Source: Oscillospiraceae bacterium (lineage in GTDB: Bacteria; Bacillota; Clostridia; Oscillospirales; Ruminococcaceae). Taken from it: a stretch of 64,000 bases of DNA. The notes beneath the pieces were generated by a model. The model was not told the origin of the DNA. It made no database searches and saw only the letters and a list, made by a program, of their open reading frames with translations. Position 1 is the stretch's first letter. Every line of letters begins with the position of its first letter. Positions 58,384 through 63,223 of the stretch are shown one piece after another. The position numbers were made by a program, and so were the translations under genes. The stretch is from NCBI GenBank assembly GCA_015067175.1, contig SVMX01000001.1, positions 124,001-188,000 on the forward strand, in the 5' to 3' direction.

Positions 58384-58608
58384 TTACTTGCCGAATCCGC
58401 CGAACAGACCGCCAATTTTATCAGCGATACCGTCGAAGTTAACCTTGGACTTTACGCCGTCAATAACGTTATTGATGACATCATCGGGAAGATCCATACC
58501 GATAACTCCCTCAACCGCCTTGATAGGCTCGCTCTGGAACTTAGCTGCAAAATCCTTGTCATTCTTAACCTTGTCTACGATCTCGTCGATCTTTGCTTTA
58601 ATATCCAT
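58384..58608 (-). CDS. Small NHLP-like leader-type protein (74 aa)
   Basis: A 74-residue protein with its own strong promoter. An amphipathic helix (KAKIDEIVDKVKNDKDFAAKF) leads into QSEPIKAVEGVIGMDLPDDVI. That follows the pattern of nitrile-hydratase-like leader peptides (acidic-F-x3-L/F-x2-xP-x2-A-x-E-x3-G-x-x-LP). The C-terminus is Gly/Phe-rich and ends GGLFGGFGK. Such leaders direct RiPP-modifying enzymes, but no modification enzyme or peptidase-transporter gene is in this window. It may also be an ordinary small helical protein. The ATG at 58608 has GAGGT upstream. Confidence 0.65.
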   Translation of the reverse strand: MDIKAKIDEIVDKVKNDKDFAAKFQSEPIKAVEGVIGMDLPDDVINNVIDGVKSKVNFDGIADKIGGLFGGFGK

Positions 58609-58642
58609 TATGATTACCTCTTTCATGAGAATTTATATGGAT

Positions 58643-58708: not shown

Positions 58709-59470
58709 TCAGGGCTTGTATTCAAAGCAAGGCATAAGCTCCAGCTTGAACTTATTCTTCTCGTGCTTCATGTCAATAAGCGCCTTGGTTTCGGGGTCGC
58801 TGCATACGCCCGTGCGGATATATTCGTCCAGCACAGCATAGGAAAAGCCGAGGTTATCCTCGTCGGTCTTTCCGCAAAGCCCATCGGACGGCACCTTATC
58901 GACCAGCACCGCAGGAAGCTTCAGCTCTCTGCCTATCTGCTTCACTTCGTCAACTGTAAGGCGGGAAAGCGGGCTGAAATCGCCCACAGAATCGCCGTAT
59001 CTTGTTGAGTAGCCTACCCAGTCCTCAGAAAGGTTGCAGGTGTTCACAACTCTGCCGTTATTACACTGGCTTACCGCATAAACACAAGCCATGCGAAGTC
59101 TTGGCGGAAGATTTACAACAGCTTGCTCCGAAACGCCATTGTTCTCATAGCCGTTGCCGCTGTCAGCGCCCTTTATCGCGTCAATCATACCTTGATACGC
59201 CGCCGCAATATTGACAGTTGTGTATCTTATTCCGAGGTGATTCACAAGCATCATAGACATATCTATATCGCTCTGCTCTCCGTTAGGCATAAGCACGCCG
59301 ATAACGCGGTCCTTGCCGAGCGCTTTCACACACAGTGCCGCCGCAACGGAGCTGTCCTTGCCGCCCGAAATTCCAAGCACGGCATTGCAGCCCTTGCCGT
59401 TCTTCTCAAAAAAATCTCTTATCCATTCCACTACATCGCGCGTGGTTTGTTTTACATCAAAGCTGTACAT
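58709..59470 (-). CDS. nadE: NAD synthetase
   Basis: A 253-residue ammonia-type NAD+ synthetase that amidates NaAD to NAD+. Seen: the P-loop VLGISGGKDSSVAAALC (about 33-49), CNLSEDWVGYSTRYGDSVGDFSPLSRLT and LPAVLVDKVPSDGL. No glutaminase domain is present, so ammonia or a partner supplies nitrogen. It is the last gene of the nrtR-pncA-prs-like-NAMPT operon. Confidence 0.93.
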   Translation of the reverse strand: MYSFDVKQTTRDVVEWIRDFFEKNGKGCNAVLGISGGKDSSVAAALCVKALGKDRVIGVLMPNGEQSDIDMSMMLVNHLGIRYTTVNIAAAYQGMIDAIKGADSGNGYENNGVSEQAVVNLPPRLRMACVYAVSQCNNGRVVNTCNLSEDWVGYSTRYGDSVGDFSPLSRLTVDEVKQIGRELKLPAVLVDKVPSDGLCGKTDEDNLGFSYAVLDEYIRTGVCSDPETKALIDMKHEKNKFKLELMPCFEYKP

Positions 59471-59503
59471 AGTATCATTTCCTTTCCGGCTTTATATTCA
59501 AGC

Positions 59504-60970
59504 TCAGAACGCTCCTCCGTTCAGTTTATTTCTTATCTCGCTGAGAGTATAGTCCTTTATGAGCTTTCCGTCCTTAAATACCGTTTCAAGCAGGTTTCCG
59601 TCGGGGATATTCTCCGAGGTATACTCGTCCTTGTAAGCAAGCTCACCGTTTTCATCGCGGTAAACGAAGCAAAGACCCTTTTGGCTCTTTTTAAAGCCGC
59701 CGTCCTTGGGATTTTTGAAGATAGGATAGCATTTGCCGCCTACCTCTGCATAGCAAGCCTTGATACAAGAGCTGAACGTATCTCTTGTAAACGGCTTCAG
59801 CATATTGTCCTCCTCAATACAGTGCATGGAGAACGAGCCAACACCAAGTGCAACATTGGAGCACGCAAAGCCGTTGTTCATAAGAATCTCGTATATCTCC
59901 TCGCAGCGCTGAACGGTAATGCTGTCGCCGTAGATAGCCTTAACATGAGGGTCGAGCACCTTGTAGCCCTTGCTGTTTACAGTACCGCCAAACTGCTCCC
60001 ACAGCTTGAATACTGTCTTTGTAACTACCTCAACGCAGTCGCCCGAGTCGCCGCGCATCAACATACAGCCGTTATGCGCCATTATCTCATCGTGAAGCTG
60101 CGGAAGTATGTTGTCGATGACATTCCAGTAATCATAGCTGTCAAGCACGCAGGAGAAGCTTGTGTTGGGATAAAGCTCCGTCAGCATTCTGCGCAGGAAC
60201 GTTATCTCGTCGCCGTCAACCGCGTAATTGGAACACATTACGAAATGCTCGGTGCTGACCGTACCATAAGCAACAGGCTCCTTCTCGCAGTCGCAGTTAA
60301 ACATCTTTTCAAGATACGGAATAGCGGGAACTGTCGCAGTGTTAAGGAACGACATACACCAGCCTGCACCTGCTTTAAGCGCAGCGTCAACGCACATATC
60401 TCCTCTGAAATCGAACGCACCGAGCGCTTTTGCCCTCGGAACATCGTCCTCGCAGGTAATCGCGTAGTATTTATTTACGATATCGCGGTAGGTCTTGCCT
60501 ACTGTTGCGGTTATCTGCGGATACCAAAGCTCAGCAGAGATAAGGCTCTCAAGCGCCTGCGGAAGCCACGCGAAATCATCGTGTGTGTTTGTGATACCGA
60601 ACATCGGCACCTTTATCGGAACAAGCTCGCCCTCGGGCAGCGCAACTATCTCCAGTGGGAGATAACCAAGCCTGTGCAGCGCTCTTATCTTATCGCTGCT
60701 GTATATGCCTTTTCCAAGCGAAACGTCCAGCACGCGTTCATATTCGCGAACCACATCGTCCTCAGGCTTTGCGAAAAACTCCTCGTTGAAATAGTCGATA
60801 AGCCATGTTTTGCAGAACATCTGCAAGCCGAACATAACTACCTTATCCCAGCGCTTTACACGGCTCATTCGCGGAGTGTAGTAGGACATAGATTTTGTCA
60901 TTTCGGGATTCAGCATATCGCTGTGCACTGTCTTGTAGAAATCGCACAGCAGCATAGGATTTATATTCAT
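59504..60970 (-). CDS. nadV: Nicotinamide phosphoribosyltransferase-family enzyme (NAMPT/NadV-like)
   Basis: A 488-residue NAMPT-type enzyme by length and motifs. Seen: the N-terminal DFYKTVHSDMLNP with YYTPR, FDFRGDMCVDAALKAGAGW (the base-stacking region of NAMPT), the PRPP/phosphate loop GCMLMRGDSGD, and IYGDSITVQRCEEIYEILMNNGFACSNVALGVGS. NAMPT makes NMN from nicotinamide and PRPP. Some phage homologues (Namat) instead use ADPR-PP to make NAD+ directly. An NMN adenylyltransferase is not in this window. It lies 22 bp downstream of a Prs-like gene. Confidence 0.85.
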   Translation of the reverse strand: MNINPMLLCDFYKTVHSDMLNPEMTKSMSYYTPRMSRVKRWDKVVMFGLQMFCKTWLIDYFNEEFFAKPEDDVVREYERVLDVSLGKGIYSSDKIRALHRLGYLPLEIVALPEGELVPIKVPMFGITNTHDDFAWLPQALESLISAELWYPQITATVGKTYRDIVNKYYAITCEDDVPRAKALGAFDFRGDMCVDAALKAGAGWCMSFLNTATVPAIPYLEKMFNCDCEKEPVAYGTVSTEHFVMCSNYAVDGDEITFLRRMLTELYPNTSFSCVLDSYDYWNVIDNILPQLHDEIMAHNGCMLMRGDSGDCVEVVTKTVFKLWEQFGGTVNSKGYKVLDPHVKAIYGDSITVQRCEEIYEILMNNGFACSNVALGVGSFSMHCIEEDNMLKPFTRDTFSSCIKACYAEVGGKCYPIFKNPKDGGFKKSQKGLCFVYRDENGELAYKDEYTSENIPDGNLLETVFKDGKLIKDYTLSEIRNKLNGGAF

Positions 60971-60992
60971 ATTATAACACCTCGTTTTCGGT

Positions 60993-61784
60993 TTATTTGC
61001 ACGGAATTACCTTGATAAGTTCGTTTTCACCGCGCCATATACTGTCAGTAGTGAATATCTGCTTCAGCAGTCCGCTGTTTATCAGCTCACCGTCGAGTAT
61101 CGAGCGCTCACAGTGCGAAACATAAAGGTATATATTGCCTGCGCCAAGTTCCTTCAGCTTCTTTGCGGAGAAAAGGAAAGTGCCGCCCTTTGAGCAGATA
61201 TCATCAACGATAAGCACGGGCTTTGCACTCATTCCCTCGCCCGATACGTCAAGTCCCTCAATACGTCCTGTTTTCCAGTCGCGCTTTTTAATTCCGAAAG
61301 CATACGGAAGCTCAACCATGCCCGAATAACGCTTTGACGCGCCCTCGTCAGGATAGAACATAAACGGCTTTTCGCCCTCTGCCGCCTCTATCTCGGATAT
61401 CACTCTCGCAACATTGTCGCGCGGAGTGCGTATCGAGATTCGGTCTATCAACGCTTCGCTCACAGTGGAATGAGGGTCAAGCACCTCTACCCTGTCAAAT
61501 CCGAGCGAATTTATTATCTCAGCGAAATATTTCAGCGTGAATATATCCTCGTCAGACTTAACTCTGTCCTGTCTTGCATTGGGGATATACGGCATGAACA
61601 GGCTTATGCGCTTAACGCCGTGCGCCTTGAGATGCTGGGTGAGATATATCAGCGCCACAAGCTCCCTATCGTTGTCGTAGTACCATGAGAGCACCGCGTC
61701 ATCACCGCAAGGTGTCTGCTTCATAAGCAGTGTTCCGTCGGGAAAACCGCCAAGCTCAACCAATTTATCATTTAACAGCAGCAT
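60993..61784 (-). CDS. Short ribose-phosphate pyrophosphokinase-like protein with unusual PRPP loop
   Basis: A 263-residue Prs homologue, shorter than the usual ~315. It lacks about 20 residues at the N-terminus and has a shorter middle. Seen: FPDGTLLM, MPYIPNARQDR (matching PYFGYARQDR), LDPHS (matching DLHA), FYPDEGASKRY, the flexible loop GIKKRDWKTG, and the PRPP loop LIVDDICSKGGTFLF. The usual TGGT of the loop reads KGGT, with Lys in place of Thr. It could supply PRPP to the NAMPT next door or act as an ADPR-PP synthase (Adps-like). AGGAGA lies before the ATG at the end of pncA. Confidence 0.8.
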   Translation of the reverse strand: MLLLNDKLVELGGFPDGTLLMKQTPCGDDAVLSWYYDNDRELVALIYLTQHLKAHGVKRISLFMPYIPNARQDRVKSDEDIFTLKYFAEIINSLGFDRVEVLDPHSTVSEALIDRISIRTPRDNVARVISEIEAAEGEKPFMFYPDEGASKRYSGMVELPYAFGIKKRDWKTGRIEGLDVSGEGMSAKPVLIVDDICSKGGTFLFSAKKLKELGAGNIYLYVSHCERSILDGELINSGLLKQIFTTDSIWRGENELIKVIPCK

Positions 61785-61788
61785 TTTC

Positions 61789-62295
61789 TCAATCTCCTAT
61801 CACGTTTATCTGACACATCTTCATCGTTGCGAGCGCCGCGCTGTGCGTTACGGGAGTAACACCCGCGCAGCAGGACGCGTCAACAGTTATCTCGGCATCG
61901 GGGAACAATGCTTTCAGTATCAGCGCATTGGATACTACGCAGATGTCCGTGCAAAGACCCACAAGCTCAATGCTCTCAAAGCTGCGCTCGTTCCACTTTG
62001 TCCAGCCGAAGCTTGGCTTGTCAATGATATCACAGTCCGAAGCGTCCAGCTTTTCGGATATCTGCCAACCGTCAGTTCCCTTTACGCAGTGAACCACAGG
62101 AAGCTTTTTGCCCTCGGGAGTATCAAGATAATCCTCGCCGTGCGTATCTCTTGTGAATATGACCTCGTCGCCGCGCTCTTTATACTCGTTTATCTTCTGC
62201 TTGACCTTTCCGACTATCGCCACAGCCTCGGGAGTACCGAGCGAGCCGTCGATAAAATCATTCTGCATGTCTACTACGATAAGTGTACGTTTCAT
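61789..62295 (-). CDS. pncA: Nicotinamidase (isochorismatase family)
   Basis: A 168-residue enzyme that deamidates nicotinamide to nicotinate. Seen: the catalytic Asp in VVDMQNDFIDGSLG, HCVKGTDGWQ with the catalytic Lys, and the catalytic Cys in LVGLCTDICVVSNALILK. The ATG at 62295 has AGGAGG 7 bases upstream. An in-frame GTG/ATG farther out is less well placed. Second gene of the NrtR operon. Confidence 0.9.
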   Translation of the reverse strand: MKRTLIVVDMQNDFIDGSLGTPEAVAIVGKVKQKINEYKERGDEVIFTRDTHGEDYLDTPEGKKLPVVHCVKGTDGWQISEKLDASDCDIIDKPSFGWTKWNERSFESIELVGLCTDICVVSNALILKALFPDAEITVDASCCAGVTPVTHSAALATMKMCQINVIGD

Positions 62296-62312
62296 GTCAT
62301 TTCCTCCTGTCG

Positions 62313-63143
62313 TCATGTCAATTCTGTCTGCTTTTTTCTGTAGAGCATCGCGGGTCTGTGTCCCGCGCCTGTTGCCTGTTCGTTGGTTTCTTCAATATAG
62401 GGAAGCACCTTGCGCCTGAAATTCGGCGGAGCAAGCGCTGTATTCAGGATAGCCTCATACACGCGCTGAAGATCGGATATCGTAAACAGTTCTGGCAGAA
62501 AATCGAACAGTATATCAAAATTATCTGCCACACCGCGCAGCCTGTCAAGCGTTGCCGCTATTATGCACGCATGATCAAATGAAAGACCGTCGCTGTCAAC
62601 TATCTCGTATTCAGCCATACCGAGCCGCACCGTCTTTTGCCTCAGCACCGAATGTATCACGATATCCCCGCCTATCATATCAAGGTAGAGCATATCGCCC
62701 TCCTTGCGATAAGCGAAATCAAACCATCGCGCGTCAGACGCGTCATCGCCGCTCACCGCACTCGCGCGCTCGCCGCCGATCACCGACACAAACGCATTTG
62801 ATATGATCCAGCCGCGGGGATCTCTATCGGGTCTGCTGAACATACCCACTGGCATCAGTGCCCTAGGAGTTATTCCGCACTCTGCTTGTATCTCGCGAAG
62901 CGCACACGCTTCAAGCGTTTCGCCTTTTTTAAGAAAGCCGCCAGGCAGCGCCCACATATCCTTAAAAGGGTGTTCTCCCCTTTTTATCAGAAGCAGCGAC
63001 AGCCGCTGACGTGAATCACATTTGTAATTCTCCGCCTCGTCATAGCTTATTGAGAAAGCAGCGATATCCACCGCAACCGAAGGACGCTCATACTTGTCAA
63101 TACGGTAATCACTGAGATAGCGTTCTTCTGCTTTATCCTGCAA
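62313..63143 (-). CDS. nrtR: NrtR-type NAD-metabolism transcriptional regulator
   Basis: A 276-residue protein with an N-terminal Nudix domain and a C-terminal winged helix, the NrtR architecture. The Nudix box is GGFLKKGETLEACALREIQAECGI. It departs from REUxEExGU at the first Glu of the EE pair (A-E), which fits a ligand-sensing, non-hydrolysing protein. The winged helix carries LPELFTISDLQRVYEAIL and NFRRKVLPYIEET..GAGHRPAMLY. NrtR proteins bind ADP-ribose or NAD(H). I use the TTG at 63141-63143, because GAGG is 8 bases upstream. The ATG at 63149 or GTG at 63152 would be too close to it. Confidence 0.88.
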   Translation of the reverse strand: MQDKAEERYLSDYRIDKYERPSVAVDIAAFSISYDEAENYKCDSRQRLSLLLIKRGEHPFKDMWALPGGFLKKGETLEACALREIQAECGITPRALMPVGMFSRPDRDPRGWIISNAFVSVIGGERASAVSGDDASDARWFDFAYRKEGDMLYLDMIGGDIVIHSVLRQKTVRLGMAEYEIVDSDGLSFDHACIIAATLDRLRGVADNFDILFDFLPELFTISDLQRVYEAILNTALAPPNFRRKVLPYIEETNEQATGAGHRPAMLYRKKQTELT

Positions 63144-63160
63144 AATCATCACCTCGCTTT

Positions 63161-63183
63161 GATAATATCAGCGTGATATTATC
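63161..63183 (-). promoter_or_regulatory. Candidate NrtR operator (23-bp perfect palindrome)
   Basis: Arms GATAATATCA (63161-63170) and TGATATTATC (63174-63183) are separated by GCG. A further half-site (TGATATTATT, 63189-63198) follows and overlaps the -10. NrtR boxes are palindromes of about this length. Confidence 0.75.
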
Positions 63184-63194
63184 ATCTTGATATT

Positions 63195-63223
63195 ATTATA
63201 TGCCCATATAATAAATTTGTCAA
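63195..63223 (-). promoter_or_regulatory. Consensus sigma-A promoter of the NAD operon
   Basis: Minus strand: TTGACA (63218-63223), an exact 17-bp spacer, TATAAT (63195-63200). The operator lies directly downstream. Confidence 0.88.

Follow-up and report, generated by a model that had tools for sequence, protein, structure and literature searches.

NARP1, with which phages counter defence by NAD+ depletion, was found recently and reportedly introduced in a paper of 2024. Its transferase, Namat, joins ADPR-PP, the pyrophosphorylated ADP-ribose made by its partner Adps, to nicotinamide and so gives NAD+ directly. In PMC12774641, NARP1 of Bacillus phage SPbetaL1 and of Paenibacillus foliorum has Adps beside a transferase of Namat fold, bacterial NARP1 is described as Adps/Namat pairs, and a bacterial pair is shown to work. 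Other described systems that come close are the Preiss-Handler route (PncA, PncB, NadD and NadE), NadV of Haemophilus ducreyi and the NrtR regulons of NAD metabolism. Here we analysed a stretch of 64,000 nucleotides (the window; contig SVMX01000001.1, positions 124,001 to 188,000) from the genome of an Oscillospiraceae bacterium (GCA_015067175.1), in which five genes lie on the minus strand between 58709 and 63152 in the order nrtR, pncA, a Prs-like gene, a NAMPT-like gene and nadE. The five families, their order, their short gaps and the perfect promoter before them had been claimed in a first-pass annotation made from the letters alone, and were borne out by the list of open reading frames (ORFs), by Pfam, NCBIfam and PHROGs and by a 12/12 match of the promoter bases. 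We argue that the operon is probably NARP1 in a nicotinic-acid form with four enzymes, controlled by a repressor from the ADP-ribose-sensing NrtR family.

The proposed scheme, in which the two substrates of the transferase, the sense of the regulation and the role in the cell are inferred from sequence, would run as follows. NAD+-cleaving enzymes would yield ADP-ribose and nicotinamide, and the rise in ADP-ribose would lift NrtR off its operator. PncA would convert nicotinamide to nicotinic acid and ammonia, and Adps would transfer pyrophosphate from ATP onto ADP-ribose to produce ADPR-PP. The Namat-like enzyme, without its amide-gripping Asp, would then combine ADPR-PP and nicotinic acid into deamido-NAD (NaAD) in one step, which the short NadE would amidate to NAD+, probably with ammonia. 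NadD or another nicotinamide mononucleotide (NMN) adenylyltransferase would be unneeded, because ADPR-PP already brings the AMP half. The PncA and NadE ends are thus common with the Preiss-Handler route, and nicotinic acid is likewise the predicted base, but the operon has an Adps/Namat-like pair in place of PncB and NadD. What the first-pass annotation had found odd, a pncA beside a NAMPT and a nadE with no adenylyltransferase, is what such a nicotinic-acid NARP1 would need.

The transferase (59504-60970, minus strand, 488 aa), predicted to be a nicotinate ADP-ribosyltransferase, belongs to the NAPRTase and NAMPT_N families of Pfam and to phrog_448 (513 bits). Among the matches listed in two comparisons of 50 rows each, its best ones were Namat, NadV and NAMPT, no NAPRT was named, and phage Namat was the nearest both in sequence and in predicted fold. 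Its only NCBIfam match was PRK09198, "nicotinate phosphoribosyltransferase" (421 bits, cut-off 405), the same name that PLSDB gives to H. ducreyi NadV. Identity to SPbetaL1 Namat was 45.1% over aligned columns, and most of the ring, ribose, phosphate and adenine contacts of Namat were retained. The nicotinamide grip was not: Namat D215, which contacts the amide, is replaced by Ala212 (codon 60335..60337, minus strand, placed by alignment), and the Asp common to Namat, Nampt and NadV is thereby missing. At this place, D219 of NAMPT, the window transferase thus has a non-acidic residue of the PncB/NAPRT type, Ala, and 17 of 129 relatives have Ser. Published work reports that D215A cuts the output of SPbetaL1 Namat 8.1-fold (PMC12774641) and that nicotinate phosphoribosyltransferases have Ser in place of the NAMPT Asp, a position said to aid the choice of base (PMC10907753, PMC4442680). 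NadV of H. ducreyi (PDB 9ke8; L185, L numbers being our locus labels) differs from the window transferase in having Asp at position 215 and Gln at 392, and no adps was found on its plasmid.

To see how this residue relates to gene content, homologues were collected by scanning GTDB genome contigs once with the window protein as query (best 80 of 90 kept), by four productive IMG/VR scans (79 loci kept of 110 stretches in the last), and from selected phage and plasmid records and additional genomes. A homologue was held by 280 of 292 loci, and alignment and clustering at 95% identity left 210 proteins; positions 215, 242, 392-400 and 40 are given here in Namat numbering. Position 215 was Ala in 112, Ser in 17, Asp in 76 and Glu in five. 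In the fetched DNA around the 129 Ala/Ser types we observed PncA in 117, NadE in 113, both in 106 and Adps in 122, with all four genes present in 17/17 Ser types. Around the 81 Asp/Glu types Adps was present in 73, while PncA and NadE were seen in 0/81 each. Position 242, another nicotinamide contact, divided the groups in the same manner (Ser in 129/129, Ala in 81/81); when 457 columns were ranked by group separation, 215 and 242 were among the six with full score, and the remaining five nicotinamide contacts scarcely varied. The link also appeared in IMG/VR alone (pncA and nadE near 48/60 Ala/Ser and 0/65 Asp/Glu types). The GTDB scan gave both genes in 53/64 Ala/Ser types and no Asp/Glu types, since the query was the window protein. 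It was considered that pncA and nadE might lie elsewhere in the Asp/Glu records or be missed by profiles built from Ala/Ser loci, and this was checked with Pfam models over the whole records of 30 Asp/Glu types, which detected NAD_synthase in 0/30 and isochorismatase in 0/30. Fisher's test of the link between residue and gene content gave p = 1.9e-37, a figure that ignores kinship; the link was retained across bacteria, phages and several gene orders.

In comparison with NARP1, the window cassette group has Ala or Ser for D215, Ser for A242 and a longer adenine-clamp loop without Tyr396, and the window operon adds pncA and nadE. The published clamp motif (PMC12774641) reads GSX-Phi-X-Phi-X-Phi-TRD and has aromatic residues as its positions 3 and 7. 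It was not found in the window transferase, which keeps GSF and TRD with a loop of 14 residues between them as against five in SPbetaL1 Namat (59789..59830, minus strand, from alignment). Loss of Tyr396 and the longer loop make the published Namat signature fail, and as two tested Namat features are absent we do not file the operon as NARP1, though it has the adjacent gene of Adps lineage and is expected to work alike. The other clamp residues were mostly retained among the Ala/Ser types (Phe/Tyr392 in 128/129, Thr398 in 127/129, Asp400 in 127/129, Arg40 in 108/129), and the transferase of the phage Phass-1 retains the short clamp form. In an Asp-type Namat homologue (L286, IMG/VR 3300049929_000026) about 280 extra, intein-like residues were noticed inside the clamp motif. 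Among the papers listed in our literature searches, which did not extend to most subscription papers or to the 2024 original on NARP1, none on a nicotinic-acid version of NARP1 was seen. PMC13232231 contains none of the terms NadE, PncA, nicotinamidase or nicotinic acid.

The Prs-like protein (60993-61784, minus strand, 263 aa), a predicted ADP-ribose pyrophosphokinase, scored 105.8 bits with TIGR01251, short of the 113-bit curated cut-off for Prs, and 227 bits with phrog_619. Its identity was 40.5% to SPbetaL1 Adps, and 23% both to Prs of E. coli and to that of its own genome. A tree was built from 255 Adps-like and 32 Prs proteins thinned to 93 rows; in it the four Prs rows had a branch of their own (94/92), and the window protein fell in a starred clade of 31 Adps rows (99/94), at which the bootstrap had not settled, the deepest branches of the tree being weak. 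By sequence the protein thus belongs to the Adps lineage and lies outside Prs. In the same tree the Adps of two loci (L183, L053) grouped with that of the Asp-type locus L210, while L203 and L248 had Adps that joined Asp/Glu-type loci; the starred branches force at least three changes of label between Ala/Ser and Asp/Glu cassettes. Such exchange of Adps lineages between the two kinds of cassette suggests that they make one common product.

Genes related to ADP-ribose also travel with the cassette. At 85% clustering a macro domain was near 23/79 Ala/Ser and 5/78 Asp/Glu types and NADAR near 9/79 and 4/78, counts biased to the Ala/Ser side as both profiles were built from Ala/Ser neighbours; Pfam confirmed two macro domains and one NADAR. 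NADAR and NAD synthetase were observed in a single protein on four contigs (L084, L101, L169, L228; a later list has six such loci, of which two repeat contigs already counted), and an NrtR-like gene was near 50/129 Ala/Ser and 0/81 Asp/Glu types. The Adps neighbour, the Adps exchange, the retained clamp residues and the ADP-ribose genes support ADPR-PP rather than phosphoribosyl pyrophosphate (PRPP) as the predicted donor. A homologue of the tRNA-His guanylyltransferase Thg1 was present near the cassette in 7/79 Ala/Ser loci (L169, L198, L204, L228, L247, L251, L262), one of them confirmed by Pfam.

Phages carry the set as well, for two gut phages were found to encode pncA, adps, the transferase and nadE. 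MT835544.1 (L003), titled a bacteriophage from human faeces and having phage-family matches, carries adps, transferase, macro domain, nadE and pncA; its transferase is 63.7% identical to that of the window, and the best NCBIfam match of its macro domain is DarG, under the cut-off. Phass-1 (L182), complete according to its record and using code 15, encodes nicotinamidase, adps, transferase and nadE, and no PF01467 adenylyltransferase was detected in its genome. A dedicated scan found no relatives of the Phass-1 transferase. In a transferase tree 22/23 Ala/Ser rows fell in one starred clade (100/99), with Phass-1 apart and joined to the long row L131. When L131, L189 and eight further rows were left out, a tree of 58 rows placed all 17 Ala/Ser rows in one clade (98/94, starred); as Phass-1 joins the others once the long rows are removed, the idea that the Ala type arose twice independently was dropped. 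The Ala/Ser proteins are then essentially one clade, and the rows of the survey are not independent. The related loci showed 18 gene-order strings, including loci cut by contig ends, with the order adps-transferase-nadE-pncA in three. The transferase was present in 2/61 genomes searched, its own included, and its distribution is hence patchy. Cassettes near the Clostridia ones were also noticed in metagenome-assembled genome (MAG) contigs titled Methanobrevibacter, Bacteroidaceae, Paludibacteraceae and Alistipes (L084, L064, L094, L047), owing either to mis-binning or to mobile DNA.

Several observations weigh against the nicotinic-acid version of NARP1. For 23 of the 129 Ala/Ser types, pncA, nadE or both were missing from the retrieved DNA; some of these loci are cut by contig ends, others are not (that of Ruminococcus albus, L037, has no nadE within 6 kb). 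The link of the transferase with pncA and nadE would thus be one origin long kept and not many gains, and the count of macro and NADAR neighbours has the bias mentioned above. Use of nicotinate needs determinants beyond the Ser, as stated in PMC4442680. As for the clamp, at most one or a few of the 129 Ala/Ser types have kept its second aromatic, Tyr396; the loop is lengthened in 127/129 (by nine residues in the window transferase), and Arg40 is Met in 16/129. PF01467 enzymes occurred in 7/20 virus records with a cassette, where some IMG/VR contigs may contain host DNA. True Namat also converts PRPP and nicotinamide to NMN in vitro (PMC12774641), and since it accepts PRPP the donor cannot be fixed from sequence.

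The other readings have to be judged on the same evidence. Ordinary NARP1 would join ADPR-PP and nicotinamide to NAD+ directly, leaving pncA and nadE as a parallel nicotinic-acid salvage under the same NrtR. The nearness of the transferase to Namat and the working bacterial pair speak for it, but the amide-gripping Asp is lost in 129/129 of the group with pncA and nadE and is Asp or Glu in 81/81 proteins without them, its loss is costly to Namat, and PncA would compete for nicotinamide; we consider this reading unlikely. The pair might instead feed the Preiss-Handler route, the Prs-like protein making PRPP, the transferase joining PRPP and nicotinic acid into nicotinic acid mononucleotide, NadD of the host converting this to NaAD and NadE finishing the work. 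The altered base pocket would suit nicotinic acid equally well here, nadD is present in the host genome, Namat takes PRPP in vitro and the clamp Tyr396 is lost. Yet the Prs-like protein groups with Adps, most of the clamp residues are retained, ADP-ribose genes cluster around the cassette, nadD of the own genome used as query matched no frame of the other cassette loci and PF01467 is missing from Phass-1, which together leave this route improbable as well.

Salvage of nicotinamide to NMN with a dedicated source of PRPP, the plainer alternative in the first-pass annotation, is favoured only by the family names of Pfam, NCBIfam and PHROGs. It would leave NadE, which amidates NaAD, without a role, the nicotinamide-gripping Asp is lost and the Prs-like protein lies outside Prs, so that we regard it as very improbable; an ordinary Prs and NAMPT pair was set aside because of the Adps tree and the loss of D215. 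Of the ADP-ribose recycling suggested at first, the general idea gained ground, as placement in Adps, nearness to Namat and the travelling ADP-ribose genes make it the better reading, while the direct NARP1 chemistry with nicotinamide lost it, the Asp being absent just where pncA and nadE occur. The nicotinic-acid version of NARP1 therefore remains the reading that we prefer.

Like the NrtR regulons of NAD metabolism, the operon has a gene for a Nudix and winged-helix regulator (nrtR, 62313-63152, minus strand, 279 aa) and a palindrome by its promoter; it differs in that the target operon contains an Adps/transferase pair and the operator is a predicted one. The product has the NUDIX and NrtR_WHD domains of Pfam, and its best NCBIfam match was the ADPR-responsive repressor model with 118 bits, far under the 400-bit cut-off; the response of the family to ADP-ribose is taken from the name of this model. 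The promoter, TTGACA-17-TATAAT, lies at 63195..63223 (minus strand). A scan of 6 kb gave 15 promoter-like sites as against 9.2 in shuffles, and only the perfect score is notable. Just past it, at 63160-63184, stands a perfect inverted repeat of 11 bases, TGATAATATCA-GCG-TGATATTATCA (0 in 100 shuffles), overlapped by a second copy with two mismatches at 63174-63198. No match beyond these two sites was found in the 2.14-Mb genome at up to three mismatches. Similar palindromes precede nrtR or pncA in at least six of 29 related loci (L018, L020, L021, L023, L053, L063) and were not seen upstream of most of the 29, several of which end at nrtR, hence the claim that the element (63160..63198, no strand) is the probable NrtR operator is restricted to near relatives.

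The PncA-like nicotinamidase is listed at 61789-62316 (minus strand, 175 aa), with a likelier start at 62295 behind AGGAGG; it scored 91 bits with Isochorismatase of Pfam, and its best NCBIfam match was PncA, under the cut-off. As listed, the nrtR and pncA ORFs share four bases, and the remaining gaps are 4, 22 and 33 bases. NadE (58709-59470, minus strand, 253 aa) is a short form without glutaminase domain, with NAD_synthase as its sole Pfam domain and 159 bits to TIGR00552 (cut-off 63.65). The 80-aa ORF downstream of it (58384-58626, minus strand) had no Pfam match.

The source MAG measures 2.14 Mb in 14 contigs and is 83.8% complete. Its only strong NAD_synthase is that of the operon (169 bits), two others scoring 32 and 28 bits. 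Short, high-scoring NadE was observed in 4/41 genomes of the genus, including the source MAG and G029, its 91% relative. Most other genomes of the genus have a NadE-type frame of about 590-710 aa (three scanned ones are CN_hydrolase plus NAD_synthase); no such large frame is seen in the source MAG, perhaps because of its incompleteness, and the operon NadE looks extra to the usual enzyme of the genus. The claim of no visible NMN adenylyltransferase stood for the operon and failed for the genome, where the proposed search detected nadD (L005; TIGR00482 149 bits, cut-off 112); a prs of canonical type (L009) and a pncB-like gene (L002) also lie elsewhere in it. The search for an NADase gave a TIR-domain protein (69 bits, in a 554-aa frame, G000:C13:195210-195530, L337), which is a candidate NADase and nothing more. 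Among the related NadE frames, one genome (G017) has a lone, cassette-like short NadE with no transferase found, perhaps a remnant (L326). NadE of L197 (8837-10003) has about 145 extra C-terminal residues with no further Pfam family, L195 and L216 being alike by length, and that of L098 (7431-8585) has about 145 N-terminal residues with no Pfam match where relatives have NADAR.

Combined together, these data lead us to favour, with some reserve, a new activity, nicotinate ADP-ribosyltransferase (ADPR-PP and nicotinic acid to NaAD), which would form the centre of a complete four-step deamidated cycle returning both NADase products to NAD+. The cycle would be common to rumen and gut Clostridia and to phages, be induced by ADP-ribose through NrtR where this is present and, in some members, be extended by ADP-ribose-releasing enzymes, up to the NADAR-NadE fusion. 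If true, the nicotinic-acid cassette adds an enzyme activity and accounts for an operon whose present annotation is ordinary nicotinate salvage, and gut bacteria would gain a means of surviving or reversing NADase activity. The two cassette groups are told apart by a single residue, and two chemistries may be merged if all Adps/Namat-like pairs are labelled NARP1.

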